NCBI GenBank assembly: GCA_030272155.1
Contig: CP126201.1
Span: 4,450,501 to 4,514,500 of the forward strand
DNA from: Tetradesmus obliquus
Lineage: Eukaryota; Chlorophyta; Chlorophyceae; Sphaeropleales; Scenedesmaceae
Direction of reading: 5' to 3'
Length of the DNA: 64,000 bases
Of this stretch, positions 38,453 through 64,000 are shown piece by piece. Each line of letters opens with the position of its first letter. The first letter of the stretch is position 1. The notes beneath the pieces were generated by a model. That model worked only from the letters and a program-made list of their open reading frames with translations. It had not been told where the DNA came from and searched no databases. The translations under genes and the position numbers were made by a program.

Positions 38453-39818
38453 CAGCAGCAGTGAGGCTCAGTACGCCCTGCAGGGACGCTGCTGCCGGCA
38501 CTGCAGCAGCAGCAGCGGCTGCAGCAGCTGCATTTGCCGCCTCAGTGCTGAGCGGCTTGGTGTTTTGGCTGCTGCTGATGTCAGCTGATGTGCCAAACCC
38601 TAAACCCGGCTCCTGCATTGAGCTGAGGGTGCTGGCGCTGCTGCTGCGGGGTATGCGCCGCAGCTGCTGCTGCTGCTGCTGCTGCTGCCCGTGTGGCAGC
38701 AAGCTGAGGGTTGAGCTTGCCAGGGTTTCAGAGTCCTCAGGAATGAAGACATCTGAGCCTGCTGAAGATCCTGGACCACTCACATCCCAATCATGCTGCT
38801 GCTGCTGCTGCTGGGTGTGTGGCTTGCCTGCTGCTGCTGCTGCTGAGGGTGCTGCTGCACCATCCACCTCCATAGCAGAGGAGCAATCCTCTGACGAAGC
38901 ATCACACGCCGCATCCACAACCACCATGTGCTGCTGCTGCAGCCGCACCTGCTGCTGCTGCTGCTGCTCAACCCCGCCACACACCTGCTGCTGCTGCGCC
39001 TGCACTTGCTGCAGCAGCGCTGCCAAGCCGTCGCGCATCTGCGCAGCAGTAGGCCGTGCAGTGGGGTCCCTACTCCAGGCCGCCTGCAGCAGATCAGCAA
39101 AGCCTGCAGGGCCCTGCTTGGGCAGGCTGGGCCGCAGCCCCTCTGCTGCTACTGCTGTGGTGAGCTCCTGCCTGCCATAGCCGTGCTCAAGCACTGTGTG
39201 AATCTCGGGGTTGTCCTTGGTGCAATCGGAGTAGGGGTACACACCTGCAGGCAAAGCGGGATGCGCAGCAGCAGCAAATACATCGACAGCTGTCAGGTGA
39301 CACGTATTGGGTGTGAAGCTAGGGGTTGTCCTTGGTGCAATTCGAGTAGGTGTACTCACCTGCAGGCAGTTAGCAGAAAAGCGGATGTTGGGTTACATGC
39401 GCGCAACTTGCGGCACGGTGTGGAGTTATGGGTTGTCCTTGTTTATGACTTGTCCTTGGTGCAATCGTAAAAGGGGTATACGCCCGTGTAACTGGCAGAG
39501 CAGCAGGACCACCGCACAGAGCGCTGTCATGTTTCAAAGTACACGCAACCTACGCTCCTGTTCTGTTCACACTGCGCTAGCTCGTTACCAGCATGTGGCG
39601 CACGCCATGCCAGTGGAGGTTGAGGATACCTGGAACTGTGGCTGCAAATATGCTGCAGAGTGACACACACACCTGTGGCGAGCTCGTTCAGTGCAATGGC
39701 CAGGCCATACACATCAGAAGCCTGGCTTGCTGGCGCCTTGAGCAGCACCTCAGGGGCCATGTACTCCAGGGTGCCCGCCATGGCACGCTTCAGGAAGCCG
39801 CCTGCAAAAACAACAGCA

Positions 39819-39853
<35 letters not shown>

Positions 39854-41271
39854 CAAACTTGCTGTCAGCAAGGCAGGACGGTGCAGGGGTGTGTCAGCAA
39901 GCTATGCAGCTACAACAGCTGCACCTGCACATCATCTGCCATGCCCAGGCATTACACCACTCTCCTGGCACCACTCTTCTGTCCTGGCACAGGAAGCACA
40001 ACACCCAGGTCTTGACAAGATGCCCACCAACACAACATATGTAAACCAATCACTTCACTTGCCCGCTCACAAGCAATCCCACTGTCAACAACCCTCCAAG
40101 AACCACCCAGAAAGCCGACCAACCGCACAACCCACCTGTGGGCTTGCCGCGTGAGCGCACCATGCGCACACTCAGCGTGCTCTCCGCCACAACCTCCTCA
40201 ACACTTGCCGCCAGCCCAAAGTCTGACAGCCAGAGCTGCCCCTCGTAGCTAATCAGCATGTTGCTCGGCTTCAGATCCCTGTGCACCAGGCCCTTGGCAT
40301 GTACTGCTGCAAGCGCTTCTGCTGCTTGGACTGCCAGCTGCAGCAGCTCCACATGGCTGGGCCTCCAGCCAAACTGATACAGCTTGCCGTGTAGTGTGGT
40401 TGCTGCAAGCGGCATCACCATGAGGTAATCTGGTGGCAGTGCACGGGCCCCAAGTAGAGGCACAATGTTTGGGTGTCCTGCAAGCGAGGCGACGATGCGA
40501 AGCTCCCGGCGGAAGCGGTTTAGGTCGTCCGAGTGGTGCATCTTAAACCGCTTGACTGCCACGTCACTGCTGCTGCTGCTGTGGAGGTGGTTGGCAGCTG
40601 GGGATGAGGTGATGCTGCTGCTGCTGTTGAGGGTGGCGTACAGCACGGTGGCTTCTGCACCGCTGGCTATCTCGCCGAGCAGTGAGAGGTCCTCCAGGCG
40701 AATGCTGAGGGGCACTGCTGCTGTTGCACCAATGGCTGCTGCCTGAGAAAACATTTTGGTAAAGAGATGCATACAGAAAGGCAGCAGTGCAGCAAGTTGC
40801 GCAGGGTGAGTACAAGTGTGTCTGGACTGTGGGAACGTGCAATGCTTCCAGGATGAGCTGATTCAAGCCGAATGGTATAGCATGTCTGATCACGACGTGT
40901 ATGCATGACGGCAACTCAAATTGTAACTATGTGAAGCTGCTGAGTCACCACCGCTGTCCGCCTGGCCACATGCAGCCACTGCACAGGATCTGCCACGACA
41001 AGCTACTTCCTTGGCTGACGCTGTGCTGCTACCATAATGTAATGCCAAAAACATGAAGCGAGACATATGCAAGCAGCCTGGGTGGACTATCACAAGCACA
41101 CGGGCCGCAGATACAAGTCTGGTCAGGCTACAGCTGTACTAGTGGACAGCGGCGCATACATACCTCCTGAAGCTGCCCCTTGCGCACAGCCTGCTGCATA
41201 AGCACCAAAGCATCTTCGACGCTCAGCCTATCGCTTTGGCCGCCTGCCTGCTGGGCTGCTGCTGTGGTCAT
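37254..41271 (-). CDS. Protein kinase-PP2C fusion protein
   Basis: Exons 41271-41164, 40742-40136, 39801-39673 and 39244-37254 give 944 residues, all phases consistent. Kinase (about residues 45-330): GEIASGAEATV loop, VAVKRF Lys, FRREL Glu, HRDLKPSN, DFG in LSDFGLAA, and GTLEYMAPE. A Gln/Ala/Ser-rich linker (about 370-565) follows, then a PP2C phosphatase (about 565-910): RESMEDR, VFDGHRG (usual form DGHGG), NAGDGRAV, GTDGLWD, GSSDNVSAV, so the metal-binding Asp residues are present. The same order, kinase then PP2C, is known in plants (protein kinase and PP2C-like domain protein, At2g40860 type). One protein could thus phosphorylate and dephosphorylate targets or itself; targets are unknown. 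In-frame ATGs upstream to 41385 leave the start uncertain. Two echo copies of the exon-4 acceptor lie in the intron before it. Confidence 0.9.
39321..39499 (-). repeat. Two echo copies of the kinase-PP2C exon-4 acceptor and exon start
   Basis: The real junction (about 39205-39260) is followed by similar sequence at 39321-39383 and a more decayed copy at 39430-39499. All share GTTGTCCTTGGTGCAAT (plus strand). The first echo keeps an acceptor (CTGCAG before GTGAGTACACC) and would read TYSNCTKDNP before a stop, against YPYSDCTKDNP in the real exon. Confidence 0.8.
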
Positions 41272-42021
41272 GGCTCCTGCCTGCAGCACACCATACAGCA
41301 ACATTGGAGGGGGAACTATGCTAACGCCGAAGGCCGAGTCAAGCAAAACATATACAATTGCATTTGTAGTTGACTGATAATGCATGCAGGTAGCCTAGGT
41401 GCTGTATGCGGTGGTGAGCGCATTGGCAGTGGTTGTGGTGCACTTGGGGTCTGCTGCTGCCACGACATTGATGGTGTTTACAAACGCACTCTTCAGTAGC
41501 ATACCTGTACTTTTATGATTGGTTTAATTGGCCTACACGCCGACTGACTCTGGCCAGCAACTCGAGCCACAAATTGCTGGCGCCGAGGACAGCAGCGACT
41601 GCTGGGCAGCGTTGAATGCCCAATCGAGGTAGAATTGCAGCCACTAGCGTGGCTGTCAGGGTGAACGACGGTATACCAGGTGGAACCGATTCCCGTCTGC
41701 TGTCCACAAGGGGAATTATTCTCTGTTGTGAGCTGCCGGAGCCTATGTCGATGTGAAACGCAACAAACGAAATGCGGCTCAACCAAAGTAAAGCACGAAT
41801 GGCAGCCCTCCGCCTATGTGGGTGATGTGCATGCCCGGTCTGCCCTCACTCATCACACCTGTTACTCACAGCCTATCCTACCATTCGTTTCGTCAACCAC
41901 CCGCTTGCCTGCCGCCACAGCACCTGCCGAATTCACGCAGTACAATCCCGAGCACCCAATCAAGCTTCAGCAGCTGCAGCTGCTGCGCTGCTGCCTAACA
42001 TGTGCCACTGCGCAAGGGGCG
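41272..42021. other. Region between the kinase-PP2C start and the SEC13 stop
   Basis: No gene recognised. A minus-strand TGTAA at 41478-41482, about 540 nt beyond the SEC13 stop, could end the SEC13 transcript. The rest should include the promoter of the kinase-PP2C gene. Confidence 0.4.
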
Positions 42022-44422
42022 CTACTGCACCACCTGCTGCCACACACCATCCAGGGACTCCTTCCAGAGCGTGACTGCATTGTTGCCGTCTGACACTGCC
42101 AGGATGTTTCCTGCTACACTCCAGCTCAGCTTCCAGACAGGCACCTTGAAGTCATGCACCAGCTTGCTCTGCCAGCTGCCGTCAGCCTGCTCCGTCCACG
42201 CAAACACCTGCCAGCAGCAGCAGCAGCAGCAGCAGCAGAGCAGTTTGTAGGGTTGGCCATGCATCGACACAGTGCTCAACGGCAATGAACAGCAACAGCA
42301 GCACCAAGCGATCCCCAATGCTGCTGTGGCAGGCGCACCTGGCCGTCCTGCCTAGCACTGGCATTGGTGTGCAGCGGCAGGCCCAGGCTGGCACATCTGC
42401 AAGGTCACCACTCTGCGCTCAACATTCCACACTCTGGCTCAACATTATCAACAGCAGTGCTGCTGTTACTGCTGTGACAGGCTCACCTGGCTGTCCTGCC
42501 CCGCACTGGCGATGGTGTTCAGCGGCAATGAAACAACAACCGCATCACACAAGCGTGTGCAGTTACTGTATAAGATTGTCCCTTGATGAAGCCCCGATGT
42601 GCTGCAATAGGCCTATCTCACCTGGCCGTCCTGGCCCGCACTGGCAATGGTGTTCAGCGGCAGGCCCAGGTTTGGTGCCCAGGCTGCGTCACGCACCCAG
42701 TCGCTGTGACCTGGCAGGGTGGCCTCCAGCGCCCAACCAGCTTCGCTGCAGCGCCACACCTGCACACATAGCAGCAGCAGCGGCAGCAGCAATCACCAGC
42801 AAGCCTTGCAGGAGAACCCACCTGGCTGTGCAAGGTGGTGCACCATGGCAACATGCCTGTTTGGTGCTGCCAAGCATGAAGCATCTGACAACGCTTGATA
42901 CAGCAGCGGGATTACAAACAGAGGATGCATCTGCTCTGCGCCAGACTGCACCGTGCGCTGAACGGTGCAGTGATACCTCATGCGACTGCACTTGCATTGC
43001 TGAAGGGCTAACAGCAACAACCGTGCATCATGATGGCGCCCGACTGCTGCTGTCTGCAGCAACTGATTCACCAACAGGGCTTGCACTGCCATGCCCTGCT
43101 GGTACTGCCTCATGACCGTCCTGCTGCTGCTGCTGCTGCTAAGATTACAGCTGGCCCCACTCCACCTCACACTTCACGCTCCCGCACCTTGACAGTGTTG
43201 TCGCAGCCGGCGGTGCACAGCCGCTTGACTGGCGCTGCTGGCGGCGCTGAGCTGACCATGCCGCCAGCAGGCACTGCGGGCGCCCAGGACACAGCAGTCA
43301 CGCCGATAGCATGCGCGCCGCTGATCTGCTCGCAGCAGCAGCAGCAGCAGCAACAATGAGAAATTGCATGATGGCCATGATGGTAATTGCTGATGCACCA
43401 GGTGACGATGGCAACAGCCATAGATGAGATGCAGAGCAGCTGCTGCGCTGTGCTGCTGTAAACATCCCGCAGCGCTCAAAGCGTCTGCAAGGAAACACCT
43501 GCTAGGTCAACGCTATTGCTTGCTGTGGTGCTGCTGCCCGGCCAAGTGCTTTTCAGCAGCACAGGTGTCGTTTGCAGTTCAGTTCAGCTTGCATGCTGTC
43601 TGGCTCACTTTGAGCTGCTGCTGCTGCTGGCCCCGTCTGGTGGCACCCAGCACCTCGCTGCTGCCAGCGCAAGATACTTTTGGTTCAACACATATTGCTG
43701 CCGGAACCACTGCCCTCGGCCGTGGGCAAACCACACAAACCACATATCGCTGATTCCTGCAGCTGCAGCAGCACCTGCGGCGCGCACCTTGCTAGTGTCC
43801 CAGCTGCCGTCCGGTTTGTGCTCCAGCAGCGATACTGTGCCGTCTGATGAGGCACACGCCAGCACCAGCCCTAGCTCATGCGGGCCAAACGCTATGCTGT
43901 TGACTGACGCTGTGTGCAGCGTCGAGGGCGTTTTGTACACCTACAGGCACAGGAGACGAGTTTGAGGATGCGAACGGGATACTTGACAGAGCAAAAGTGC
44001 GTTATCGAGCAGGGACGATGCATAAGGCAGCAGCTTGCATGCAGAGCTAGCTGGTTCTGAAAGCAGCGCTGCTGTTGCAACTTGGGTGCTGCTGCAAAGC
44101 ACTAAATGTCTCTCAGGAGCGTCCGCAGGAGGCTCACCTGCATCCACTGCCCGTCTGAGCCCTCCTTCCACAGGATCACCCGATGATCGAAGGATGCCGA
44201 GGCCAGCAGCGAGCCATAGCGAGGGTGTGCCCAACAGACAGTCCAGACAGGTCCCTCGTGCCCCGTGAGGTCCGCGATGTGCGTACGCTGATCGCCTGAT
44301 AGGTCAAATACCTTGACTGTGCGGTCAGAGGAGCAGGTTGCTAGACGCTTGCCGTAGTAATCGAGCTGCGCATCGTGCACCATGTCCAGGTGGCCGCTTT
44401 CAAACACGCCACCCGCAGCCAT
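42022..44422 (-). CDS. SEC13: SEC13 WD40 protein (COPII coat and nuclear pore)
   Basis: Exons 44422-44138, 43940-43788, 43325-43188, 42759-42622 and 42207-42022, all phase 0, give 299 residues, the usual length for SEC13. It is a six-bladed WD40 propeller: it pairs with SEC31 in the outer COPII coat at ER exit sites and is also part of the Y-shaped nuclear pore complex. Seen: [20 protein letters not shown] near the start, [61 protein letters not shown], and [17 protein letters not shown] with VTLWKE near the end, all typical of the family. The ATG at 44422 fits the family start. Oddity: two echo copies of the exon-4 donor lie in the following intron. Confidence 0.95.
42334..42530 (-). repeat. 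Two echo copies of the SEC13 exon-4 donor edge
   Basis: The real exon-4 end and donor (42616-42680) is repeated at 42481-42530 and 42334-42391, about 135-145 bp apart. Both echoes keep the reading frame for about 15 residues ([14 protein letters not shown] and [14 protein letters not shown] against [14 protein letters not shown]) and keep a usable donor (GTGAGC, GTGCGC). Confidence 0.88.
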
Positions 44423-45035
44423 GGCTGCTAAAGTCAATTATTCGAGCCAAGCGTATAGATGTGGAAAGATTGGGACAGAGGTGCTTTCTAGCACCCCAGT
44501 GCAAGCAAGCACAACAGAAGCAGCAGAGGGGTGGTTGGCAGGGTGATCTCTTGTCCTTGCTCATCACACAACCAAAAAGTAAGGGAAAGCAGTAGTGATG
44601 GACAGTCTACAGCATTGTCCAGCCTCAACACATGAGCAGGGTTCAGTGCTCAGGTGCTCAGGTCACCTGAGGTGACAGTACAGTCCTGTAGTGCCTGCTG
44701 CAGGCTGCAACTGCCAGCATGCAACAGCTCTGGCTGGCTGACCAACACAGACACGGTGTAACAATATAATTTCAGCAGAAGCACGTCATCCACCACACCA
44801 AAACAATCGTGAGCTGACAGTATCTGGCCCTGCAGATTGGCACACACGTGCAGGATGGACCATCCCACGTGCCATCCCATGCGGTCGACATTGGTTGGCA
44901 AAGGTAGGCAACTTTCCAATAGCTATCCACTTGCCATCAAAAAAACTGTCCAGCATTGGCAAAGGTAGGCAACTTGCCAACAGCTAGCCACTTGCCCAAA
45001 AAAGTGTCTAGCATTGGTCTCAGCTTTGCAAGCTG
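44423..45035. other. Region between SEC13 and the PqqB-like gene, with a short tandem repeat
   Basis: No gene recognised. Two tandem copies of about 64 bp lie at 44890-44957 and 44954-45017 (GGCAAAGGTAGGCAACTT is shared), just beyond the PqqB-like stop on the minus strand, so probably in its 3' UTR. Confidence 0.5.
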
Positions 45036-46591
45036 TCAAAGGCTGTAAACATCGCCTTGGCAGCCTATCTGCAGCCCCGAAGCAAGCGCCTGCTGCCGCT
45101 CGGGCCCATCTCTGTAGCAGGGGTTGCTGTGGTTCAGGTGCACCATGACCACCGCCTTGCCGCCCGTTATCACGCCATTCAAACGCTGCGCCGTATCTGT
45201 TATCAGCGGGTGGGGTATCTGGCTGATGTCCCGCCCTGGAAGCTCTGCAGCACTGTAGAAGCAGCCATCCAACAGTGCAAGGTCTACTGACTGCACCACC
45301 TGCAGCACAACATCAAATGGAGGCAGCAGCAGCAGCAGCAGCAGCAGCATGCATGCCAGCCCTAATCACACAAGCCAGAGCCAGGTTGTGCACATCACCT
45401 CATGCTCAGTTTGCGCATCGCAGGCCAGAACACCATGCACGCTGCTGCTCTTCAGCGCTGCGCCGCCCTGTGCTTTACTGGGTGATCAAGATTCACTGCA
45501 GCAGTGGCAACATGGCCGCATCATACACAACCGCTGCACATTCACACATGCATGTCTGCCGCACCTGCCGTATGTCAGTGCCTGCTGCCTGCCATGCACC
45601 CCAGCTGTCAATGTCAGGCAGGTAGAAGGCAGTCTTGCAGGAGCCCTGCGCACAAGCATGCAGGGAAGCATGGCAGGACAGAGCCGCGGCTAAGTTGCTG
45701 TTATCACAATCACCGCAGCTGACCTTGCAGCATGGTGCGCGGTACGTGCAATAAGCGTGCGCGCCTGCCCATGTGGCCCTGCTGTTGCCTGGCAGTTCCA
45801 CCTCCTATGCCAGCAGGCATGCTCAGGGGCCTGAGGCGCCAGCCGCGGCGCAGGCACAACGCCACACAAGGTTGTGCTGCCAAGCTATTCAAAGCTTTCT
45901 GACAGCGAATTTCAGGCTACTTCTGCAAGCGTAAACAGTGCAGGTCTATACAGCAAACCAGGGTGCATCGTCAACTAGCACTTCACTTGCCTTGATGTAA
46001 AAGCCCACTGCATCGCTGAACTCTGCGCGGTGAGGCACTGCTGCTGGCGTCACCGACACGTGCTCCGACAGCTGCAGCGCTGCTCCAGGCTGCAGCTGCC
46101 GCAGCAGGAAGTTGCCATTGCTGATGTAGGTCCTCCAGGGCTCGTTGCTGCTGAAGAAGCTCAGCACGGATGGCGTCCCCCACAGCTGCAGGTGCAAGAG
46201 TTGCAAGCACGTCACAGGCATACCTAAGAGAAGGAGCATATCAGACGTTAATGGCACATCAGGGTGCTGGGAGACAGCGCAGCTAGAAGTGTGTATGCAT
46301 TGCGGCAAGCTAAATGCAGAGCAGCTGCTGTGGCCAGTTTGAAAAGAACAAAAAGGCAGTCTTACGCATGGCAACCAGTGTGTTGGTGGGATGCATATGG
46401 CAGCATAGTCGAGCCGCTGACAGCAGTTGCTGACTTCAAAACGAACGCCTTCCACAGATAGTGGGCAGGTTGCTGAAATTGACACACAACCAGGTCATCA
46501 TCCACAAGTGATGTTGGCTGCTGCATCTGCTGGCCGAATGTCGTGTCACGCACATGCAGCTAGGCAACCAACTGCTGGCTGGCTGGCTGGT

Positions 46592-46637
<46 letters not shown>

Positions 46638-46915: not shown

Positions 46916-46960
<45 letters not shown>

Positions 46961-52467: not shown

Positions 52468-52504
<37 letters not shown>

Positions 52505-53496
52505 ATATCTGATTTATTGCGCAATGAAGCTCGTAGCTGCCGCAGCTGTTGGAAACAACATGAAGCGTGTAAGAGATGGAGCTGGTTTGGCATTGTGTGA
52601 CAAATGCGAGGTTGGCAGATTAAGGGCAGCAGGTGGTGTTACAGCAGCTGCTGCATAGGCATGCATGATGTGCTGCATGGTGATGGATCTGCTGGCAAGG
52701 GTCAAGCGCAGTGATGTGTTCCTGAAGATGCTGCTGCTGTGTCTGCTGCTACTCACCATACCATTTGGTGCTGCCACCTTCGCTGCTGCTGCAGGTCACC
52801 ACCTTCTCTCTGTTCAGGCTAATGCGGGAGGTGGATGGGGACCTGACTGAGGACCAGCTCAGCAGCTACACCTCACCAGCAGCAGCAGTCAATGGCAGCA
52901 GCAGCAGCAGCAGTGAGGCTGGCAGCAGCCAGGATGAGCTGCTGCTGCTGCAGTACGTGCGCCACGGCGCGTTCAGCAAGCTGTGTGCTGTGATGGGTGC
53001 CGGGCAGGGCCAGGGGAGTGCCCATGAGCTGGCCTTCAGCATGCTGCTGTCGCTGGCGCTGCTGCCGCAGGCGCAGCGGCTGGTGGCAGACCGGGGCGAG
53101 GTGGCCAGCATTGTGCAGGTGAGTTGGAGGGCTGTAGGACTGATGTGCTGGTGGGATAAAGGGCTGCAGGTTGGGGGAAGGGGGGCAAGGGCGCAGGCGC
53201 AGCGGCTGGTGGCGGATTGGGACGAGGTGGCCAGCATTGTGCAGGTGCGGGGGGCTGTGACGGGGGCTGGGCTGCTTGGTAAGGCGTGTGTGCATAGTGA
53301 CGGCATTCATGCAGGTGAGGGGAAGAGGAGGGGGGGAGGGCTGTGGGGCAGGTGTCTGGCTGGATTGTTTGAGTGGGGCATGTGTGGATGGTGGCGGCAA
53401 TTGTGCAGGATGAAGAACGGCTGTGGTGGCGGTTGGGCTGGGCTGCTTGGTGGGTGCTGCGTGCATGGTGGCGGTGCTTGTGGCCTACACGTGACG

Positions 53497-53538
<42 letters not shown>

Positions 53539-53612
53539 CTGCAGGTGCTGTCCTCCAGCAGCAGCCCTGCCACGCGCTCATGCTGATCCTGCTGCTGCTC
53601 CTGCTGCTGCTC

Positions 53613-53643
<31 letters not shown>

Positions 53644-55331
53644 CGGTGCCTGCAGGTGCTGTCCTCCAGCAGCAGCGCCGCCACGCGCCTTGAGGCGATG
53701 CTGGTGCTGGGCCGGCTGGCTGGGCTTAATGCATGTGCGTCGTAAAGTTCGCACTGAAATCAATACTGCTGCTGTTGCTGCTGTAGGTGCTGTGTTCCAG
53801 CAGCTCCCCTGCCACGCGCCTTGAGGCGATGCTGGTGCTGGGCCGGCTGGCTGCGCGCTGCGTGGCAGTGCAGCAGGATGCGGTGCGGGAGGGGGCCGTG
53901 CCCCCACTGGTGGACATGATGCAGGCCGGTGAGTTGGCTGTGGTTTGATGCAGGAGTTGGAGTTGGGGTTGATTGGAAGCCTGAGGTTTGAAGCTTGGAA
54001 GTGTTGTTGTGGCCAAAGCAGATGAGTCAGCGCATGCGTGGACACTGCCATATACGGCAGGGGCCTGTGCCCCCACTGGTGGACATGATGCAGGCCGGTG
54101 AATGTGATGCAGGCATTGAGGTTGATGGTCTGCGATTTGAGGTTATAGCTTTGGTTGGAGCCAAGCAGCTGAGTCAGCGCATGCATACTCCTCCTCATGC
54201 AAGAGGGGCAATGCCTCCACTGGTGGACATGACGCAGGCCGTTGAGTTGCCTAAAATTTTTATTTGGGTTGCTGAGTGTGCTGCCCTTGTCAGCCTGCTT
54301 ACCAAACTTGACATGCTGCCATGCAGGCACTGACGAGGAGCGCTGCCACGCCTCCCGCCTGCTGGCGCTGCTCGGGCAGCACGCTTCGACCCATCAGGTC
54401 ATACTGCAAGCCGGCGCGCTGCCGGTCGTGCTGCGCGTGCTGCGCGACCGCGGCCACCGCGCGCCACCCGGCCTGACCCTGCAGCCCGCCACAGCACCTG
54501 ACGGCAAGCCCCTGGCAGTCTGGCAGGCAGCACACGCTGCTTACAATGCAGCACTGGCTGAGGGAGCCACGAGTGAGGCTGCAAGCACGGCAGCAGCAAT
54601 GGCTGCCTCTGCTGCTGCTGCTGCGGGAGGGTCTGGTGCAGCAGAGGATGCCAGCAGCATCAGCAGCAGCAGTTTGCTTGAGATGCCGCAGCAGCAGGAG
54701 CAGCAGGAGCAGCATGCAGAGGCAGGCTTTTCAAGCCCCAGCAGCAGCAGCAGCAGTGAGCAAGTGGCAGCAGCAACAGCGGCAGCGACCTCGGCTGTGA
54801 CTGTTGGCCCCAGCCTGGTGCTTGAGCAGGCTGTGGGCGTGGTGTGCATGCTGGTGCACAACCCTGACAACCACTTTGCCATGGTGGGGGAGGGGCTGGT
54901 GCCACTGCTGGTGTCGCTGCTGCACAGAGGTGAGTGGGGTAGCATACGTTTTGTCGTCATTGTGTAAGTGCGTAGCTTTGCAGTTAGTGCATTTAGATAT
55001 GTGTGCTGTGGTGGGGGAGGGCCTGGTGCCGCTGCTGGTGTCGCTGCTGCATAGAGGTGAGTGGGGTAGCATATGTTATGTTGCCATTGCATGACTTTGG
55101 ACTTACTGCACCAAACATGTTTGCCATGGGTCGGGGAGGGCCTGGTGCTGCTGCTGGTGTCACTGCTGCATAGAGGTGGGCGGCTGGGGCTGATTTGACC
55201 AGCGACATAGTTATTTGAAAGGTTGAGTTTGTAGTGGCTGCATTACCTTGCATATGTTGGACATGTGCATTGCACCTGCATTGCGCCTGTGCCGAGACAT
55301 GCACCAGTCAAGGATGGCGCCTCACCTTGTG

Positions 55332-55380
<49 letters not shown>

Positions 55381-58300
55381 AGAGACGCCGGGCAAGACCC
55401 TGACGTATGCTCTGGCCAGCCTGCTGATGCTGGCCATTGCGGAGCCACGCCACGCAGCGGTGGTGGCACGCACAGGTGCGCCTGCTGCTGCTGCTGCTGC
55501 TGCTGCACTGTGGCAAACTTGCATGCCTGACTGGCAGTGCAGAGTGCTAGCTGTGTGCGACTTGCTGCCAGTGATGCCCATAATGTTGCTGGTGCTGCTG
55601 CTGCTGCTGCAGGCGCGGTGCCTCTGCTGGTGCTCATCTCGCGTGAGGGCAGCCACCGGCCGGTCAACCGTGAGCTGGCTGCTGCGCTGCTGGCGGTGCT
55701 GTGCCGCAGCCAGGACGTGCAGGTGGACGTGGTGGCAGCAGGCGGCATTCCCGCACTGGCGAGGTGAGCATATGCTGCAATGTACGTGCTGTAATTTGCT
55801 TATGACACTGCGGGGAGGATGCCTTGGCATCAGGGTGTGCAGGTGGACGTGGTGGCGGCAGGCGGCATCCCCGCCCTGGCGAGGTGAGACAGTTAACACC
55901 ATGTTACATGCTTGTACATGTTTGGGTAACAGGCACCACAGAGCTTCAGCTGGGATGCTTGACATATGCCACAGCATTGGTGACAGCTCTGTAACATGTC
56001 TACGTCACCTGCATGCAATGCAATGTACCTGCCCTTGCAGGCTGATGGCGGAGGGCACGGACAATGCGCGGTGCAACGCCTCTGCCGATTGATCATATTC
56101 AACACATAAATTAACGCTACCCGACATGATGTTCACCTTGTTGCTGCAGGCTGATGGCGGACGGCGCGCGCTGCTACGCCAACATGCTCAACACCCAAAC
56201 GCACTGCAGTCGACTGAAAACTCTGTGCACAACGGCATGTTTTGCTGTCCTGCTGCAGATTGATGGCGGAGGGCACAGATGGCGCGCGCTGCTACGCGTG
56301 TGAGGCGCTGGCGCAGATCGCGTCCGGCACGGACGTGCGCTGCCGGCTGGTGGCACGTGCTGGGGCGCTGGCGCCGCTGCGGAGTATGCTGGCTCCTGGC
56401 GGCAGCTCACTCAGCACGCTATGGGCGGCGCGGCTGCTGAAGGTGCTGGTGCAGGTGCGCTGCAAGCGATACGGGATAAATTGTGTTCAGTGGGTGCTGG
56501 GTACGCATGGCTTTGCGTCAGCGTGGATGTGCTGGCTGTGAATTGTGTGTGTTGCTCAGCATGGTGTGCGCCGCTGCGGTCCATTCTGTTTCCTGGTGGC
56601 AGCTCATTGAGCACGCTGTGGGCTGCGCGGCTGCTGAAGGTGCTGGTGCAGGTGCGCATCTGCCACAGCACAACCCGCTGCGTACCCTGCCTTGCCAAGT
56701 GCTGCTGCGCCCAATGAGTGCTGTTTTGGCTGGCAGAGCTAGCGCCTGATTCAGGTTTCAGCTCGACGTGCATCCTTGATATGTTACAGTGCTGTCTTCT
56801 TCTGTCAAAGAGGTTGCTGTGCGGTCTTGCCCTGATACCAATTGGTGGTGTTTCTTGTGATTTGCAGGAGCACAGCGCGCTGCGGGAGGTGGCAGAGGTG
56901 CCGGGCCTCATTGCACTGCTGCCAGAGGTGCTGGGCAGGCGCCCTCTGCGCCAGCAGCAGCAGCAGCAGCAGGATGAGCTGCCACCAACAGCAGCAGGCA
57001 GCACAGCATCCAGCCCGCACATTGTGCCGGGCGTAACGACCAGCAGCAGCAGCAGTGTGAACGGCGGTGTGAACATGGCATCGATGGATGTGGAAGTTCA
57101 GGGTGAAGTTGCCAGTGCTGCTGCTGCTGACGCTGACCTGGAGAAGGCACAGGCGCAGCTGGCCTGGGTGGTGGCGGCACTGGCTGCCAACCGCCTGACA
57201 CGGTGAGCTTGCGTGTGTGTGTGTGGATGGATTGTGCTCTGGTCTGTCAAAAGCACCAGCTGCACCTATTCTGTCTGTGCGTGCGCTGTGCTGCCATGTC
57301 TTCTTGCAGGGGCGTCATTGCTGACGTGGGCTGCTTTTTAATCTGCCCCCTGGTAGCCACACATCTTTTTGTAGCGACTTTTTTGCTGTACTCTGACAAC
57401 TTGCTGTCGTCTAACATGTGCAGTGGCATCATAAAGCGGAGGTGGGCTGCTTCCTCATCCGGCCCCTAGTAGCTATGCTGCGTGTATGTTCCGTGTCTGC
57501 TACCTGTGTTTTGTGCTGTGTGCTGTGGCAGCTGCCTGCAGAGGTGTCACTGCCAAGGCCGGCTACCTGACTCCATCACACCGCACAAAGCACACCTGAC
57601 TCTTTTGTCTCTGCTCTCCTGCAGGGGCGTCATCTCCGGAGTCGGCTGCTTCCTCATCCGGCCCCTAGTGGCCATGCTGCGAGAGGCCCAGGCTGGCTGT
57701 GGAGCAGGGCTGGGCCTGGCAGATGTGCTGTGTGCTGACAACTGTCTGCTTGCAGGAGTGTTACCTCTTGGACTGGCTACTTCCCCATCACACAAGTCAC
57801 ATTAAGTCCTCCACTGTTTTGCTCTGCCTCAAACATCTTTGTGCAACGTGCATGTCTCTGCTCTCCTGCAGGGCCGTCATCTCTGAGGTGGGCTGCTTCC
57901 TCATCCGGCCCCTCGTAGCTATGCTGCGAGAGGCCCAGGCCGGCTGTGGAGCAGGGCTAGGCCTGGCTGACGTGCTGTGTGCTGATAACTGTCTGCTTGC
58001 AGGAGCGTCACCTCTTGGGCTGGCTACTTCCCCAGCACAGACAGTCCTGCACTGTTTTACTCTGCGTAAAACATCTTTGTGCAACGTGCATGTCTCTGCT
58101 CTCCTGCAGTGGCGTCATCTCTGAGGTTGGCTGCTTCCTCATCCGGCCCCTAGTAGCCATGCTGCGAGAGGCCCAGGCCGGCTGCGGGGCGGGCCTGGGC
58201 CTGGCTGACGTGCTCGAAGGCCTGGCCAACAGCAGGCAGGCCGCTGCCGCTGCTGCGCTGAGAGGGTTGAGCAGGGCCGATGACCGGCTGGCTGCGCTGG

Positions 58301-58404
58301 TCAACGCTGAGCTGGCGTTGCAGCTGTGGCTGGGGCACCGGGTGGAGCTGCCTCGGCTGGCGGAAGAGGGGATCGCATCTGATTGGTACCCGCCAATGGA
58401 GTGA
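50734..58404 (+). CDS. Armadillo-repeat protein
   Basis: Ten exons: 50734-51645, 51913-52461, 52795-53118, 53787-53928, 54327-54929, 55383-55475, 55613-55763, 56259-56454, 56868-57202, 58110-58404. They sum to 3,600 nt (1,199 residues) with every phase matching. The first 300 residues are Ser/Ala-rich and likely disordered. After that come repeated ARM-type helices: VAAGGVPVLVHAL, ATRLEAMLVLGRLA, REGAVPPLVDMMQAG, LQAGALPVVLRVLRD, VGEGLVPLLVSLL, GAVPLLVLISREG, VAAGGIPALARLMAEG, ARAGALAPLRSML, and EVGCFLIRPLVAML. These form an alpha-solenoid binding surface; partner and pathway are unknown. Poly-Ser, poly-Gln and poly-Ala inserts interrupt the repeats. Almost every intron holds copies of the adjoining exon edge, so other splice choices are possible; the model uses the copy that extends into the full exon. 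Confidence 0.85.
53191..53250 (+). repeat. Echo of ARM exon-3 donor edge
   Basis: Repeats the last about 55 nt of exon 3 and its donor (CAGCGGCTGGTGGC through GCATTGTGCAG|GTGCGG), about 125 bp into the next intron. The frame would read AQRLVADWDEVASIVQ against AQRLVADRGEVASIVQ in the exon. Confidence 0.9.
53541..53727 (+). repeat. Two echoes of ARM exon-4 acceptor edge
   Basis: Copies at 53541-53580 and 53651-53727 precede the real exon 4 at 53787. Both keep a CTGCAG or CCTGCAG acceptor and GTGCTGTCCTCCAGCAGCAG. The second continues through ATRLEAMLVLGRLAG before diverging. Confidence 0.9.
54059..54250 (+). repeat. Two echoes of ARM exon-4 donor edge
   Basis: CCACTGGTGGACATGATGC and the GGCCG|GT donor are repeated at 54059-54102 (GTGAAT donor kept) and at 54203-54250 (donor changed to GTTGAG without a GT at the junction). 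Confidence 0.85.
55006..55180 (+). repeat. Two echoes of ARM exon-5 donor edge
   Basis: The exon end GGGGAGGGGCTGGTGCC through CATAGAG|GTGAGT recurs at 55006-55080 and 55119-55180. The first echo also copies about 30 nt of intron sequence (GAGTGGGGTAGCATA), showing that the duplicated segment spans the junction. Confidence 0.92.
55836..55890 (+). repeat. Echo of ARM exon-7 donor edge
   Basis: GTGCAGGTGGACGTGGTGGC through CTGGCGAG|GTGAGA repeats the end of exon 7 (55720-55769) about 115 bp downstream, with the donor kept. Confidence 0.92.
56031..56185 (+). repeat. Two echoes of ARM exon-8 acceptor edge
   Basis: TGCAG|GCTGATGGCGGAGGGCAC at about 56035-56090 and TGCAG|GCTGATGGCGGACGGC at about 56146-56185 precede the real exon 8 at 56259, which itself begins ATTGATGGCGGAGGGCACAG. 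Both echoes keep the acceptor and the phase, but run into stops or diverge. Confidence 0.9.
56570..56657 (+). repeat. Echo of ARM exon-8 donor edge
   Basis: The last about 85 nt of exon 8 (reading GGSSLSTLWAARLLKVLVQ) and the GTGCGC donor are repeated about 200 bp into the next intron, the coding sense unchanged for 19 residues. Confidence 0.92.
57299..57995 (+). repeat. Four echoes of ARM last-exon acceptor edge
   Basis: Before the real exon at 58110 there are four copies: about 57299-57360, 57410-57480, 57600-57760 and 57850-57995. All have a CAG acceptor followed by GGCGTCAT or a near variant and GTGGGCTGCTTCCTCAT (GTCGGC in the third). The last two form a tandem repeat of about 243 bp that includes the intron end and continues for about 40 codons (to GLGLADVL) before diverging. 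Confidence 0.93.
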
Positions 58405-58528
58405 TGCGTTGAGCTGCATGATTGTCAAATCGGATGGCCTGATCGGGACCAGCCTGGTGCATTTGTCGTCCGTGGCTGCTTGTCATTCGGTTGGATTAGC
58501 ATGCGTCACAATCATGACATGGGTTGAA

Positions 58529-58660
58529 GCCGATGGCCGGCTGGCTGCGCTGGTCAACGCTGGTCAACACTGGTCAACGCTGAGCTGGCTCTGCAGCTGT
58601 GGCTGGGGCACCGGGTGGAGCTGCCACGGCTGGCTGGCGAGGCGCCCGACATGGAGTGAT
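58529..58660 (+). repeat. Echo of the ARM coding end beyond the stop
   Basis: Sequence matching the last exon from GCCGATGACCGGCTGGC to the ATGGAGTGA stop recurs after the real stop, with a 12-nt unit (CTGGTCAACGCT) partly triplicated and an internal deletion. It is a partial copy of the gene end, not a separate gene. Confidence 0.85.
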
Positions 58661-60963
58661 GGAGGGAGCTGCGGGGCGTAGCCACATGCTGTCCTGTTGA
58701 GGCACTGATGGGATTTCTGTTTGGGTATGGCATCTGTGATGTTGGCTGTGACAAGCATGTGCCAGCTAGCGCTGTAGCGTAGCAGGCAGTCAGCATGCAT
58801 TTAGTGATCCCGTGATCACCCCACGTGCTGTGGCAGACAGGCTTTGCCTCTAGCATTAGCCCTCACGTACAAGTGCCGTTGTTAGGCAGTGGTATGCACA
58901 GTGATAGAGTGTCAGCATGCGTGGAGCGATCTGGTGATCAACCCATGTGCAGAGCTCCATCTGCTGAAGCCAAGGCACAGAGCCGCGGCTCCTGCTGTCT
59001 ACTCTCATGTGACAAGCATCGATGTTAGGCAGTGCTATCACCAGCAGAAGAGTGCAGAGCAGCATGGTGAGGTGCTGCGCAAGCACCTGCAGTGTAGCGC
59101 AGGGTATATGGTGTGCGCATGCGCCAAAGCAGCGCTGCTTGCACGCTGACTTGTCGGGAGTGTCCTCAGCGCTGCTTGCACGCTGACATGTCGGGAGTGT
59201 CTCAGGGTGCTCGGTTTGCAAGCTAGCATGCTGAGGACGTCAGATTGACTGTGGCACTGGTGTAAGGCTTGACAATGCGGGAGCTTCATGTACTATGCAT
59301 GAAAGAGGCTGCGTGGGAGCGGCTGTGGTGTGGCAGTGAAGCAGCTGCTTGCTTATGGCTGGTGCGTGGCGGATGACAACGGGGCTGTGATATGTTACAG
59401 TGACAAATGATGCAGAGAATGTGCGAGTTCTGCTCCGGCAACTGGTGTTGCATGTTGCTGCCAGCGGCAGCAGCGCTCCGAGCAATTTGGGTTCTGTACA
59501 GATGTGTTCAGCGCAGGATGACCAGCAGCATTGACTGACTGCTGTGCAATGGCCATTTCGAGGCCTCATGACAGCTGATCTGTGCCACGCATACGCAGGT
59601 GCAGCACTGCCTATGTGTTGAGCGAGTGTATGTGTGGGTGCCACCGCACCATACATGACATGTCTTGACACCCCAACCACAGTCTGATTTTGTACGCAGC
59701 TGACCTTGACATTGTGTACATGTGACCTGTTAAAACGAAGCATGACCATGCACGCTATTATCAAAGTAAGAGGGCAGGATGTGTGCAGATGAACCATATC
59801 ATTGTGTTTTTGTCAATCCATTCCTTTGGGCAGGCAATTTGGCAGATGTGGAGCTGTGCCCGTGTTGATGTGCCAAGAAGCAGCAACTGTTTTGGGTGTT
59901 CAGCTGCTCAGCTAGGCTAGCTTCTAGACATGCACAGCAGCACGTAAGGTGTGTTGTCACGGACAATCGGCTGAGTATATCGTGGCTGCGCATGCATATG
60001 CAGCTCTGTGTGCACTGAGGGAGGGGTGTGCGGGGACAGGACCCATGTGATTATGCTTGCTGCTCTGCTCTGCAGCCTGTAGGAAGCAGTGCTGCTGCTT
60101 TTTGCATGCATGCAGCGCTGGTTCTTTCTACATGGTGTGCTGCATTTGTACAGCTTTTTATATCCAGTACACTTAGAAGTGCAGCAGCCAGTTTGATGTT
60201 TGCACGCGCTGTGCAGCATGGCTGCTGTGGCTGCTGCCTCACTGGCAGCATTCTGTGGTAAGACAAGGACTGAGCAGTTGCCAACTGCCGGGCCTTTTTT
60301 GCCGGGCCTTGTGCTGTCATCAGGGGCCTTTTCAACCCTACAAAGCATTGTTCTTCAGGCAGCAAACATGAGCATGGGCCCTGAAGCACGCTGGATGTGG
60401 ACATCAGTAATCAACAGCCTTTTGTAGAAGCCTCTGCTGGCGCTTGCTTTGCTCCTTTAGGTTGTTGCACTGCACGTGCTGCCTGCTGAAGGCTGAGGCT
60501 ATCTGAACATTTGTGTGGGTTTGCACAGCTGTGGGCATGCACTCACAGAACCTGCATCGCTGGGCAGAACATGTAATAGATCTTCAACACTCTCTTTGTT
60601 GCAAGGCTAACTCCTCGTGCAGCCCTTAGTTTTGGTCCAAGGTTCGCAGCCTGAAAGCCGCTCACAGGCTGTGCAGCAACTCTCGAGCACGAGCTGGTGC
60701 TGCCATGGCAGAGCTTTGCGCGGCGGCATGCTGCTTTGGCCAGCTGATTCATAGTGCGCCACCCATTCCCTGAGTCGCAACCGCCAACTGCAATGACCCA
60801 CGCAACATTGGGACTTGAGGCACGCCCACCGCATGGGACGCTTCCTGCGTCTTGGGAAGCCCACGCAACAGAAGAAACTGTGTCGCTCTGCGAGCTTGGT
60901 TACACGTTGTACAAAGTGAGTTCTGCACAGCCTGCAAGCATCACGGGAGCCATCCTGCAGGCA
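58661..60963. other. Convergent region between the ARM gene and TSR3
   Basis: No gene recognised. A tandem duplication of about 37 bp lies at 59131-59205 (GCTTGCACGCTGAC twice). Loosely repeated blocks of about 85 bp occur between 58740 and 59070 (GTCAGCATGC, GTGATC). The right part is the probable 3' UTR of TSR3, with a minus-strand TGTAA at 60900-60904 about 60 nt past its stop. Confidence 0.4.
60900..60904 (-). terminator. Candidate TGTAA polyadenylation signal for TSR3
   Basis: TGTAA on the minus strand, about 60 nt downstream of the TSR3 stop at 60964. Position is plausible; the motif alone is weak evidence. Confidence 0.3.
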
Positions 60964-61145
60964 CTACTGCTGCTCCCCCTCCTCTATTGCTCCTGCTGCT
61001 ACATCCTCCTCTTCTTCCTCTTCACTTTCACTCTGTGAGGGAGGCAGCATGGAGTCATCAAGGTACCCTTTCCTGCTGTCCCCCTTTTGGTGCCGAGTGC
61101 CACTGCCCGACGGCTGCTGCTGCTGCTGCCCGGAGCCTCTACCCT

Positions 61146-61179
<34 letters not shown>

Positions 61180-61548
61180 TGCTGCTGCTGCCGCTGCAGC
61201 TTCTGCAGCTTCTGCTGCTGGCGACAGCGTCAGCTGCCCTAGCCGCCCTAGCTGCTGCTGCTGCTGCTGCTGTTGTGAGCTGCCGCCGTCGCCATCCTGC
61301 TGCTGCTGCTGCTGCCCTTCCTCATCCCCTTCTTCGCCATTACCATCATCATCATATGCTTCTATAAATTCACTGTCACCCTCCTCATCTTCACCCTCAT
61401 CTTCACTGCCACTGCTGGGCCACTCAGGGCCAGCTGCAGTGACCTGCTGCAGCCACGCATTCTGCGCTGCAATGACCTCGCCAGCCGTGTTGCACTGTGA
61501 GTATGCCTCCAGCAGCTCCGCGTTGGTGCTGAAGAAGCTGTGGCCCCT

Positions 61549-61583
<35 letters not shown>

Positions 61584-62013
61584 CAAGGTGCTGAATTTGT
61601 GAGCAGCTCAAGGCAGCAGCCAACAAAACTGCTGTCACAGACAACAATCGAGCTGCAAGATGGTGCAGCGCTGCACATCACCAGCGGCTGTGTGCCCGCA
61701 GCTCAATCTGCTGCTGCCACGCACCACTTGAAGCAGCTCATGACCCCCCGGCTCTCCTCCTGCAGCCCGTACATGCACCCTTAGCCAAATCCCCACTACC
61801 CACTTGCTGATGCTGCTGCCACACACCACTTGAAGCGGCTCATGATGCCCCGGCTCTCCTCCTGCAGCCCACAAATCCACGCCACCCCGATCCTGTCTAT
61901 CCACAGCCCTATGCTGTTACCGTGCATCACTTGAAGCGGCTCATGACCCCCCGGCTCTCCTCCTGCAGGCCGTTCATGCACCCTTAGCCGAATCTCCACT
62001 ACCCACAGCCCAA

Positions 62014-62051
<38 letters not shown>

Positions 62052-62716
62052 CGTCATTGCCTGCCACGCACCACTTGAAGCGGCTCATGATGCCCCTGCT
62101 CTCCTCCTGCAGCCCGCAGATCCACAGCGCGGCAGCCAGCGCCTCCGCACACGACAGCTTGCACGGCCGGCCTGCAAGCAGACATGACAGGCGCTGGTTG
62201 TGAAGCAGACATACGTTGCAGGTCACAAGCGCTTGTTGTGGAGCAGACATACAATGTGGCAGCCAGCGCCTCCGCACACGACAGCTTGCACGGCCGGCCT
62301 GCAAGGCAGAGCAGCGGTAGCACAGACACCGGCAGGCAGTGGTAGACCCCAGCAGAAAACGGCAGTCAGCGGTGCGAGGGCGTGTGAGTAAGAGCTGGCT
62401 GTACAATGCAGAGCTCGAGCCAGTGTGCTTGCCTGCAGTTGCCAGCTGCAGTGAGGTAGCAGGGACAGGTGCAGCAGAGCGAGTGCAGGACACCAGATGT
62501 CGGCCACGCGCACAGTGCAGCAGCCAGCAACAGCTTTTGCAGAGGCAGCCTGGCAGGCCAACCTTGTGTGGCTGCGGCAAGGTAGCAGATCACCAAAAGC
62601 AGTGCAACTGTTGACAGCTCAGCATCGCCCTGCCCTGCCCCCTCACCGTAGTTGACTGGGTTGGCTGCCACGAAGAACGGCAGCAGGCGAGGAGCAGCAC
62701 CCCTGATGCGCCCTGC

Positions 62717-62752
<36 letters not shown>

Positions 62753-64000
62753 GCAGCAGAAGGAGCAGCAGCAGTTCAATGATGTGCGCGTGTGTACAGC
62801 GCGCAAACCAAGCATCATTGTAGATGCAGCTGGTGTGCAGCATCCTTCAGACCGCAGGTGCAGCACCACTTGCAGCTGAGCATGCATTTGCTGATCTCAC
62901 TTGCTGTTGATGGTAGCTGTGCATGCAAGCAGCTCACCGAAGGGCACATCCTCCAGCCTGTTCCATGAGCAGTCCACCACTGCCAGGCCCTTGGCGCGGA
63001 TCAGCGGCGCATCCTCACGCGACACAACCCTGGTGGCAGCCAGCAGACAGACGGCAGCAGATGGCAGCAGATGGCAGCAGCGATGTCAGCAGCAGGCAGG
63101 CGGCAGCAGGCAGCATCTCACACGACACCAGCCTGACATGGCAGGCAGCAAAGCACAACATATGGCAGCAGATGGCAGAAGGCAATGAGCCAGGTCAGCA
63201 CACGGCGGCAAGCGGCAGGCAGAAAGCCCTTGGCGCGTATAAGCGGCGCATCCTCACGTGACACAACCCTGGTGGCAGCCAGCAAACAGATGGCAGTTGT
63301 AAACAAGCAAGTGGTTGTCAGCGACCCAGGCAGCGGTAATTGTAAACAAGCAAGTGGTTGTCAGCGACCCAGGCAGCGGTACGTAAGGAGCCTTACGTAC
63401 CGCTGACAACCACTTGCTTGTTTACAGCAGATGGCAGCAGATGGCAGCAGCCGTGTCAGCAGCAGGCAGGCCGCAGCAGGCAGCATCCTCACGCGACACC
63501 ACCCTGGCAGCAGGGAGCACATGACAACACATGGCAGCATACACACAAGACAGTAGGCCAGGTCAGTGCATGGCAGCATGCGTCAGGCGACAGGCGGCAG
63601 GCAGCAAGCCCTTGGCGCGGATCAGCGGCGCATCCTCACGCGGCACCACCCTGGCAAGACAGCAAGGGACATAGATGACAGCGAAGCACAACAGGTGGAA
63701 GCAGATGACAAAAGGCAGTAGACCAGGTCAGCTCATGGCAGCAGGCGGCAGGCAGCTGCTGCTGCGGCCGGGGCTGAGGATGACTGTTGGGACGGGTGTG
63801 CCTAGCCGCACTGCTGTGCTGGACATGACCACCCTGCACACGATAATAAAAGAACCTGATAAACACAACCCTGCACACGATAATAACAAAACCTGATGCA
63901 GCAGCGCACCTGCTGCCGCTGGGGCTGCAGATGACTCCAGGGAAGGGAGTGCCCAGCCGCAATGCTGTGCTGGACAACACAACCCTGGGCAAAACAGCCA
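60964..64000 (-). CDS. TSR3: TSR3, 18S rRNA aminocarboxypropyltransferase; 5' end outside the window
   Basis: TSR3 transfers the aminocarboxypropyl group from S-adenosylmethionine to the hypermodified pseudouridine of 18S rRNA (1191 in yeast), a late step of small-subunit maturation in the cytoplasm. Exons seen: one ending at 63909 (its 5' edge lies near 63980 or beyond the window), 63029-62938, 62712-62647, 62171-62072, 61546-60964. Joined, they read through LRLGTPFPGVICSPSG, VVSREDAPLIRAKG, LAVVDCSWNRLEDVPF, RLLPFFVAANPVNYG, RPCKLSCAEALAAALWICG, then SRFKWGHSFF and NAELLEAYSQC, the conserved order of the family; WGH is formed across a splice junction. The tail of about 150 residues is acidic and rich in Gln and Ser, as in other eukaryotic TSR3 tails but with longer runs. 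The first part of the enzyme is missing because the window ends. Introns hold many exon-edge echoes. Confidence 0.92.
61716..61988 (-). repeat. Three echoes of a TSR3 exon donor edge
   Basis: The real exon end (62062-62115, coding LQEESRGIMSRFKW with a GTGCGT donor) is repeated at 61716-61785, 61813-61880 and 61919-61988 at 100-150 bp spacing. All share CACTTGAAGC(G/A)GCTCATGA on the plus strand and CTCTCCTCCTGCAG. Donors read GTGCGT, GTGTGT and GTGATG. Confidence 0.92.
62251..62311 (-). repeat. Echo of a TSR3 exon acceptor edge
   Basis: GGCAGCCAGCGCCTCCGCAC through GGCCGGCCTGCAAG (plus strand) repeats 62130-62178, the start of the exon beginning RPCKLSCAEALAA, with its acceptor, about 125 bp into the upstream intron. 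The shared coding part is nearly identical. Confidence 0.93.
63225..63660 (-). repeat. Echoes of the TSR3 exon reading VVSREDAPLIRAKG
   Basis: The exon start at 62985-63035 is repeated at 63225-63280 (coding VVSREDAPLIRAKG unchanged but for synonymous or single differences), at 63605-63660, and as a short piece at 63483-63510. CCAG or CCAGGG before GTTGTGTC keeps the acceptor in the first echo. Confidence 0.88.
63299..63426. repeat. Foldback structure in a TSR3 intron
   Basis: A unit beginning GTAAACAAGCAAGTGGTTGT is present twice in direct order (63299-63338 and 63341-63381) and once inverted (63391-63426). The inverted arm pairs with the second direct copy over about 35 nt, apart from a 12-nt insert, around a GAGC loop. 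AGATGGCAG sits on both sides. Confidence 0.85.
63765..63835 (-). repeat. Echo of the first visible TSR3 exon
   Basis: Reads STAVRLGTPVPTVILSPG against STALRLGTPFPGVICSPSG in the exon at 63909-63980. The donor is lost in the echo (CTGCCT in place of GTGCGC), so the 63909 copy is taken as the real exon, although VILSP is closer to the family pattern. Confidence 0.8.

Follow-up and report, generated by a model that had tools for sequence, protein, structure and literature searches.

Short direct duplications within genes that carry splice signals with them have been described as internal gene duplication or tandem genomic duplication, and in the relevant passages of PMC4974935 and PMC3443670, which cite Rogers 1989 and Gao and Lynch 2009, they are treated as giving rise to new introns or exons; PMC4974935, PMC3443670 and PMC3296678 also deal with how introns are gained through tandem duplication and break repair. 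In the RdRp gene of potato one event, a tandem duplication of an intron-exon boundary, made a new intron, and the same account mentions an 83-bp tandem duplication within an intron (PMC4974935); in intron gain during double-strand-break repair, as outlined in PMC3443670, short direct repeats flank the inserted stretch. Here we describe exon-edge echoes, copies of an exon end and its splice site that lie in the adjoining intron, which recur in a window of 64,000 nucleotides (the whole stretch of DNA analysed, C11:4450501-4514500) of the Tetradesmus obliquus genome (104.7 Mb, 17 contigs). The summary figures in PMC5966456 for this species are 108 Mb, 57% GC and a mean intron of 462 bp, and a comparison involving Chlamydomonas remarks on long introns for which the reason is unknown (PMC8226300, passage on introns).

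We file the echoes as a variant of internal tandem duplication as the cited passages describe it, with which they share short, direct, local copies within genes that include splice signals. Unlike those cases, the T. obliquus copies lie inside an existing intron, appear mostly to leave the product unchanged and affect ~11% of exon edges, and more than half of them show nothing past the splice site. The potato duplication described in PMC4974935 is of the same boundary type but is a single event, whereas the exon-edge copies of T. obliquus are recurrent; direct repeats are likewise common to the break-repair gains outlined in PMC3443670, but those of T. obliquus run from tens of bases to ~120 and are bound to existing junctions. 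No description of exon-edge copies in introns was found among the titles and abstracts that searches of an open-licence library brought up.

The reading that we favour, with a probability of about 0.6, is that echoes are near-neutral partial direct duplications spanning an exon-intron junction, tolerated because splicing uses the copy joined to the exon. In a head-to-tail duplication of a junction-bearing stretch, one junction would remain with the exon and the other copy would fall in the intron; it follows by reasoning that donor ends should recur downstream and acceptor ends upstream, with frame and splice site intact at birth. If this is correct, and one edge in nine has such near-neutral copies, then part of the intron length of this genome derives from its own exons.

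Distribution and sidedness of the echoes

Self-comparison of the window finds direct repeats of ~40-370 bp, at spacings of ~60-690 bp, throughout 39-64 kb, and in 1-39 kb only a tandem gene array (15-35 kb), two short repeats (33.2-33.9 kb) and a minisatellite (34.8-35.4 kb). Between 39196 and 63654, on both strands, 12 exon edges have 23 copies (Table 1), and a thirteenth edge, that of the ARM exon starting at 56259 with two upstream copies, was recognized by eye and not returned by BLAST. The four genes concerned (kinase-PP2C, SEC13, ARM and TSR3) are those in which an earlier note on this DNA had reported echoes on both strands; its figure of over twenty places is right for the copies, not for the edges, and its length range of 40-150 bp is corrected to 46-124 bp for the edge copies found by BLAST, with one array alignment of 214 bp.

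How general the pattern is was judged from a sample made up of the window and 38 loci, which are 20 arbitrary 10-kb stretches at round positions (on 13 contigs) and 18 kinesin loci. Exons were called with a home-made ab initio gene finder, trained on 71 kinesin exon matches from the 18 kinesin loci (66 after those containing stops were dropped), refined on its own predictions and then applied to the 38 loci and the window. It returned 441 exons and 447 introns (median intron 296 bp), and it recovers SEC13 and most of the kinesin exons located by family search, although predicted exon ends may be wrong by some bases. The models have a strong acceptor consensus of CTGCAG/G and donors of CAG/GTGAG or CAG/GTGCG. 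TSR3 is poorly modelled (18 stops), and its edges are based on reading by eye and a Pfam match.

Local direct-repeat pairs are present in 16 of the 20 arbitrary stretches, and the clearest case is provided by the kinesin loci, one of which (L042, found through Pfam and so independent of the gene finder) has the acceptor end of one exon six times upstream, with the donor ends of two other exons recurring downstream, two times and once. In a first design, 253 direct pairs, from which low-complexity pairs had been removed earlier, were reduced to 203 by requiring a gap of at least 15 and a length of at least 30, at a cost of 50 pairs (44 by gap, 6 by length). Acceptor edges copied upstream account for 47 of the 203 and donor edges copied downstream for 50, with none the opposite way; the remainder are 6 interior pairs, 3 spanning both exon ends, 2 at gene ends, 54 outside exons and 41 lying in predicted exons on both sides. 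With the window left out, 36 acceptor/upstream and 42 donor/downstream pairs remain, again with none reversed. Inverted local pairs number 4 against the 253 direct ones, and no inverted pair touches an exon.

In a second design, matches to each of 315 internal exons (minimum length 60 bp, flanked on both sides by introns of 80 bp or more) were sought in the two adjoining introns and in introns of another locus. Donor ends matched the downstream intron in 32 exons (50 hits) and acceptor ends the upstream intron in 37 (48 hits), with one wrong-side match for each; 98 of 100 edge hits are thus on the expected side, and together with the 97 one-sided edge pairs (97 of 97) of the first design they bear out the rule, proposed in the earlier note, that echoes lie always on the intron side. 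The introns of other loci gave no hits, which excludes chance as the source of the echoes, and echoes are present across the sampled genome. Exon interiors yielded 9 hits, some beginning 13-22 bp from an edge, against the 98 at edges; random placement would put ~45% of matches in interiors and ~55% at edges, and 9 of 107 has a binomial P of 9e-17. None of 109 hits is a whole-exon copy. The earlier note had suggested such a comparison, genome-wide, as a check, and in the sample edges do far exceed interiors; but since the purging of interior duplications also yields this excess, the refutation that the note proposed (interiors echoing as often as edges) could not tell the hypotheses apart. That echoes are one-sided, with frame and GT or AG preserved, can be put down to the topology of a junction-spanning duplication and to the purging of protein-changing duplications within exons, so that a process focused on junctions is not needed for it.

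Echoes, carried by ~11% of exon edges in the sample, are unevenly spread. Outside the window 59 of 520 edges bear one, with a dispersion 2.9 times binomial (P 1e-8); the 20 arbitrary loci contribute 48 of 358 edges, in 13 loci, and the 18 kinesin loci 11 of 162, in 4, and at some loci about half of the tested edges are affected (8/14 and 6/12). A donor echo goes with a longer intron (median 438 versus 282), and intron length correlates with the unevenness (rho 0.62), partly by construction. GC, considered as a cause of the unevenness, shows no correlation. For the 38 single echoes that lack intron homology the distance to the source is 86-562 bp, never less than 86, and for 35 of them it is 86-246 bp with unlike sequence between; in this they differ from intronic minisatellites, of which the ordinary tandem arrays at L012, L016 and 34837-35409 of the window are examples. 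Repeats outside exons, unlike the single echoes, also occur at spacings of ~60-80.

Sequence change and the intron halves

The 97 edge pairs align over 4772 exon bases with 482 mismatches, which cluster by codon phase (133 at first, 81 at second and 268 at third positions; z ~8); 243 of the mismatches fall in synonymous and 233 in other codon changes, and there are 9 in-frame stops and 37 gap columns. GT or AG is retained in 86 of the 97 echoes. Of the earlier note's observation that frame, phase and often the GT or AG are preserved, the part on the dinucleotide stands for most copies, but frame is not always kept. Coding constraint on the echoes was considered and is unsupported, stops and frame breaks being present.

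At edges with several echoes, 26 differences separate the real exon from all of its echoes; because 22 of these are synonymous and 4 are not, they point to changes that arose in the live exon, making the real exon the constrained copy. Differences private to single echoes number 165 in 2226 sites (7.4%). Echoes differ from one another by 12.0%, which is less than the 18.3% obtained by summing their distances to the real exon; the shortfall is about two times the real-exon change (3%), as would be the case for copies of the live exon taken at different times, and the copies form a star with the real exon at its centre. That echoes were born in series, the closest being the most recent, was rejected, the order being inconsistent. 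We read the echoes as near neutral and not kept as coding sequence. On this reading each echo would preserve its exon as it was at an earlier time: VLSSSSS, the sequence of strain OEZ85, is encoded by the ARM echoes at 53545 and 53656, where the live exon encodes VLCSSSS.

The intron beside each real site was compared with the intron beside its echo, excluding other copies from the windows and masking simple repeats. These intron halves are homologous (p<=0.02) in 34 of the 97 pairs, where ~2 are expected, and 9 pairs fall in between; by another measure, 39 of 97 exceed the 95% background for intron similarity. These tests replaced an earlier gap-versus-flank test with few null comparisons (10 of 91 at p<=0.05). 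As the copies contain GT or AG, and about a third have intron sequence too, the view of the earlier note that they are DNA duplications crossing the junction and not reinserted mRNA is sustained; a retrocopy would consist of joined exons without intron bases and is rejected on the same ground.

Aligned on the donor, identity is 92% over the last ten exon bases and the GT, 53% at +6 to +9, 48% at +10 to +19, 35% at +20 to +39 and 29% beyond; aligned on the acceptor it declines from 94% to 67% within the last ten intron bases and is 39% before them. Real tandem units with an intron part are seen in ARM at 57617-58090 (exon 10.6%, intron 7.9% diverged) and in a six-echo array at locus L026. Where the intron is alignable, by a cut-off of 48 that admits ~5% of chance pairs, exon and intron differ by 8.5% and 15.8% in 25 pairs of real edge and echo and by 12.6% and 14.4% in 8 pairs of echoes, near our neutral expectation of ratios of 1.6 and 1. 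Intermediate cases with a worn intron half are provided by the SEC13 edge, ARM 54875 and L026. The synonymous share is 0.54 with intron homology and 0.51 without it. The class with intron homology behaves as ordinary tandem duplication, and the class without it does not. The ARM unit and copies 2 and 5 of L026 show similar divergence in exon and intron, which counts against fast-mutating introns as the cause of lost intron halves; together with the alignable pairs it suggests that introns do not simply decay faster.

Competing explanations

Several observations weigh against the near-neutral duplication that we favour. Intron homology is undetectable (p>0.1) in 54 of the 97 pairs despite equal exon divergence (10.2% vs 9.7%). 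Plain tandem birth with equal decay predicts that the share with intron homology should rise with exon identity, and it does not rise, which counts against such a history: from lowest to highest exon identity the 95% background is exceeded in 3/17, 10/28, 15/27 and 11/25 pairs, and a second test gives p<=0.05 in 9/33, 13/26, 12/25 and 4/13, although in this test other copies in the gap confound multi-echo edges (single-echo edges reach p<=0.05 in 12 of 54). Intron-only repeats are fewer than geometry predicts, with 28 intronic pairs in 11-12 clusters (by our own reading) vs 82 edges, where the geometric ratio is 0.67. Gene conversion should renew the intron half too, and direct repeats of 50 bp would be expected to undergo deletion no less often than conversion. 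Finally, 65 of 137 echo-private differences (47%) are synonymous where 28% are expected (P 1e-6; full codons, L020 excluded), and this excess shows that the echoes did not all arise at one time as neutral copies; it could be explained if older exon states have been sampled, and copies of different ages, or mild constraint on the echoes, are possible accounts.

About one third of the echoes are tandem duplications including intron sequence. Uniform decay does not explain the class without an intron half. For this remainder the same tandem birth may have been followed by short-tract gene conversion of the exon half from the live exon while the intron halves drift, a plausible but tentative proposal that we place short of even odds; that the duplication was bounded at the splice site from birth is doubtful. 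The worn intermediate cases speak for re-copying of the exon half; a junction-bounded event is favoured by the way in which likeness ends at the splice site and by how few copies consist of intron sequence only.

Taken further, the second of these leads to an unlikely alternative, in which a process duplicates the exon end only, to ~six bases past the splice site, and inserts it in the intron, in most cases at a distance of 86-246 bp from the source, for instance through the repair, with filler DNA, of breaks where an RNA-DNA hybrid covering the exon comes to an end. The sharp drop in donor identity after the GT would be accounted for in this way, as would the failure of intron homology to rise with exon identity, the 54 pairs lacking an intron half, the rarity of intron-only copies, and the observation that in the true tandem unit tested the intron parts decay no faster. 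Yet the worn intron halves and the 39 pairs above the 95% background are hard to reconcile with it, it is without a known mechanism, and inspection of the distal ends of 27 donor and 22 acceptor edges revealed no motif; moreover, selection on the live copy also ends at the splice-site core, and predicted exon ends may be off by some bases. The broader proposition, that T. obliquus has a mutational process tied to splice junctions that duplicates exon ends up to the splice site without an intron half and sets them ~90-250 bp into the intron, we consider rather unlikely. The junction-focused process suggested in the earlier note loses the intron-side rule and kept frame as its support and keeps the lack of intron similarity and the scarce intron-only copies. 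With the class of echoes ending at the splice site, it would become testable whether splicing or transcription causes local duplications; were a junction-tied process true, the echoes would record splicing- or transcription-coupled DNA damage together with past exon sequence, and would supply ready splice sites.

A pair of inverted paralogues close together on C11 (L047 and L048) bears on the origin of echoes. They have a common exon with 2 differences in 142 bp. A donor echo (95% over 40 bp, with at least 33 identical) is present in one of them; none was found in the other, whose intron start resembles the sequence after its partner's echo (69% over 85 bp) and not clearly the exon-echo stretch. 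The contrast fits gain of a stretch together with the copy, or deletion between two copies.

Selection that retains echoes as decoy splice sites or regulatory pseudo-exons, the other suggestion of the earlier note, is very unlikely. The GT or AG present in 86 of 97 echoes, the synonymous excess among echo-private changes and the use of one echo donor in the deposited ARM model are what it would lead one to expect, but donor echoes keep GT no better (0.920) than the neighbouring exon bases (0.924), the echoes contain stops and frame breaks and some have lost the splice dinucleotide, 14 of 18 kinesin loci have no echo, and a close paralogue can lack its partner's.

Alternative or mutually exclusive exons arising by exon duplication are highly improbable: although the gene finder and the deposited ARM model call some echoes exons, and 3 of the 203 pairs span both exon ends, none of the 109 hits is a whole exon, in-frame stops occur, the extra ARM segment is absent from strain OEZ85 and Scenedesmus sp., and by eye the donor echoes (27 edges) have no common acceptor-like start and the acceptor echoes (22 edges) no donor-like end. 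Mobile elements or introners carrying exon ends are extremely unlikely: although short dispersed repeats are present in these introns, every echo copies its own exon, no exon copies are inverted, and at 54 single-echo edges the sequence between the copies matches another sampled locus in 3 cases and that beyond the echo in none (control 9/120, sampled loci only).

Genes, annotation and other features

Pfam identifies in the window WD40 (SEC13, via homologues), Pkinase and PP2C, Arm, and Ribo_biogen_C PF04034 (TSR3); a search of the window against Rfam gave no match. Read from its real edges, the SEC13 protein shares 99% identity with a T. obliquus protein across 99% of the query. The ARM gene matches OEZ86_013887 of T. 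obliquus, and a hand-made ARM query with the echoes removed is 100% identical to the deposited protein across 67% of its length. The deposited model reads through the real ARM donor (exon end 53118) and exits at the donor of the echo at 53192-53258, adding the repeated segment, which the proteins of strain OEZ85 and of Scenedesmus sp. NREL 46B-D3 lack; its echo donor represents either an annotation error or an alternative product. The SEC13 and ARM proteins of strain OEZ85 contain no echo, and from homologous proteins the echoes appear to be spliced out. Echoes can pass for exons and so mislead gene annotation.

Table 1. Exon edges of the window and their echoes (positions within the window)
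Feature	Positions	Strand	Basis and remarks
Kinase-PP2C acceptor edge, source copy (exon ~38828-39244)	39196..39253	-	self-BLAST, 89.7% over 58 bp; acceptor/upstream class
Kinase-PP2C acceptor echo, upstream intron	39311..39368	-	self-BLAST; in-frame TAG by eye
SEC13 donor edge (exon 42622-42759)	42617..42670	-	self-BLAST; SEC13 by homologues/Pfam
SEC13 donor, first echo	42482..42527	-	93.5% over 46 bp
SEC13 donor, second echo	42336..42387	-	90.4% over 52 bp
ARM donor edge (exon 52795-53118)	53066..53135	+	self-BLAST; Arm by Pfam
Its echo	53192..53258	+	self-BLAST
ARM acceptor edge (exon 53787-53928)	53781..53856	+	self-BLAST
Its echo	53650..53725	+	self-BLAST; shorter third copy starts 53545
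ARM donor edge (exon 53787-53928)	53886..53939	+	self-BLAST
Its first echo	54055..54101	+	self-BLAST; repeat includes intron, 53886-54101 vs 54055-54245, 72%
Its second echo	54205..54252	+	self-BLAST
ARM donor edge (exon 54327-54929)	54875..54932	+	self-BLAST
Its first echo	55014..55065	+	self-BLAST; adjoining intron alike too, 54882-55059 vs 55009-55178, 82%
Its second echo	55120..55178	+	self-BLAST
ARM donor edge (exon 55613-55758)	55711..55768	+	self-BLAST
Its echo	55831..55888	+	self-BLAST; likeness stops at GTGAG
ARM donor edge (exon 56259-56454)	56371..56460	+	self-BLAST
Its echo	56568..56657	+	88% over 90 bp; likeness stops at GTGCGC
ARM last-exon acceptor edge (exon 58110-58404)	58102..58214	+	self-BLAST
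Its echo, in tandem unit including intron	57864..57976	+	exon part 8.8% diverged from real one
Its further echo; vs echo 57864..57976 exon part 10.6%, adjoining intron part 7.9% diverged	57617..57729	+	
Its partial echo	57419..57482	+	self-BLAST
Its partial echo	57302..57359	+	self-BLAST
TSR3 donor edge (exon 62072-62171)	62061..62125	-	self-BLAST; PF04034
Its three echoes, tandem array	61709..61972	-	self-BLAST; starts 61709, 61811, 61912
TSR3 acceptor edge (exon 62072-62171)	62131..62182	-	self-BLAST
Its echo	62258..62310	-	98% over 53 bp; adjoining intron not significantly similar (p 0.12)
TSR3 acceptor edge (exon 62938-63029)	62984..63034	-	self-BLAST
Its echo	63226..63273	-	94% over 48 bp
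Its further echo	63605..63654	-	94% over 50 bp; third, shorter, at 63483-63537

Other repeats accompany these. The tandem array at 15793-34872 consists of ~4 related gene pieces (blocks of ~600 bp, 66-76% identity) and is almost without exon-edge echoes, and the minisatellite-like array at 34837-35409 lies within a predicted gene. Numerous CAG/CTG triplet runs occur at many places between 39802 and 62788, in exons and introns, including immediately before acceptor sites, and a TSR3 intron contains an inverted repeat (hairpin) at 63341-63426, with arms by eye of 23 and 10 bp and an insert in one arm. At L047:4685-4811 and in L048, a 24-25 bp repeat of the stop-codon region lies just downstream of the gene and is common to both paralogues, a gene-end echo and not one of a splice site. 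Two short repeats of L026, at 9206-9319 (~114 bp, mostly 92-96%) and 2778-2912 (135 bp, 86-89%), are dispersed on many contigs; the former lies in an echo array and by eye seems to be flanked by repeated TGGGCTT, like a small non-autonomous element.

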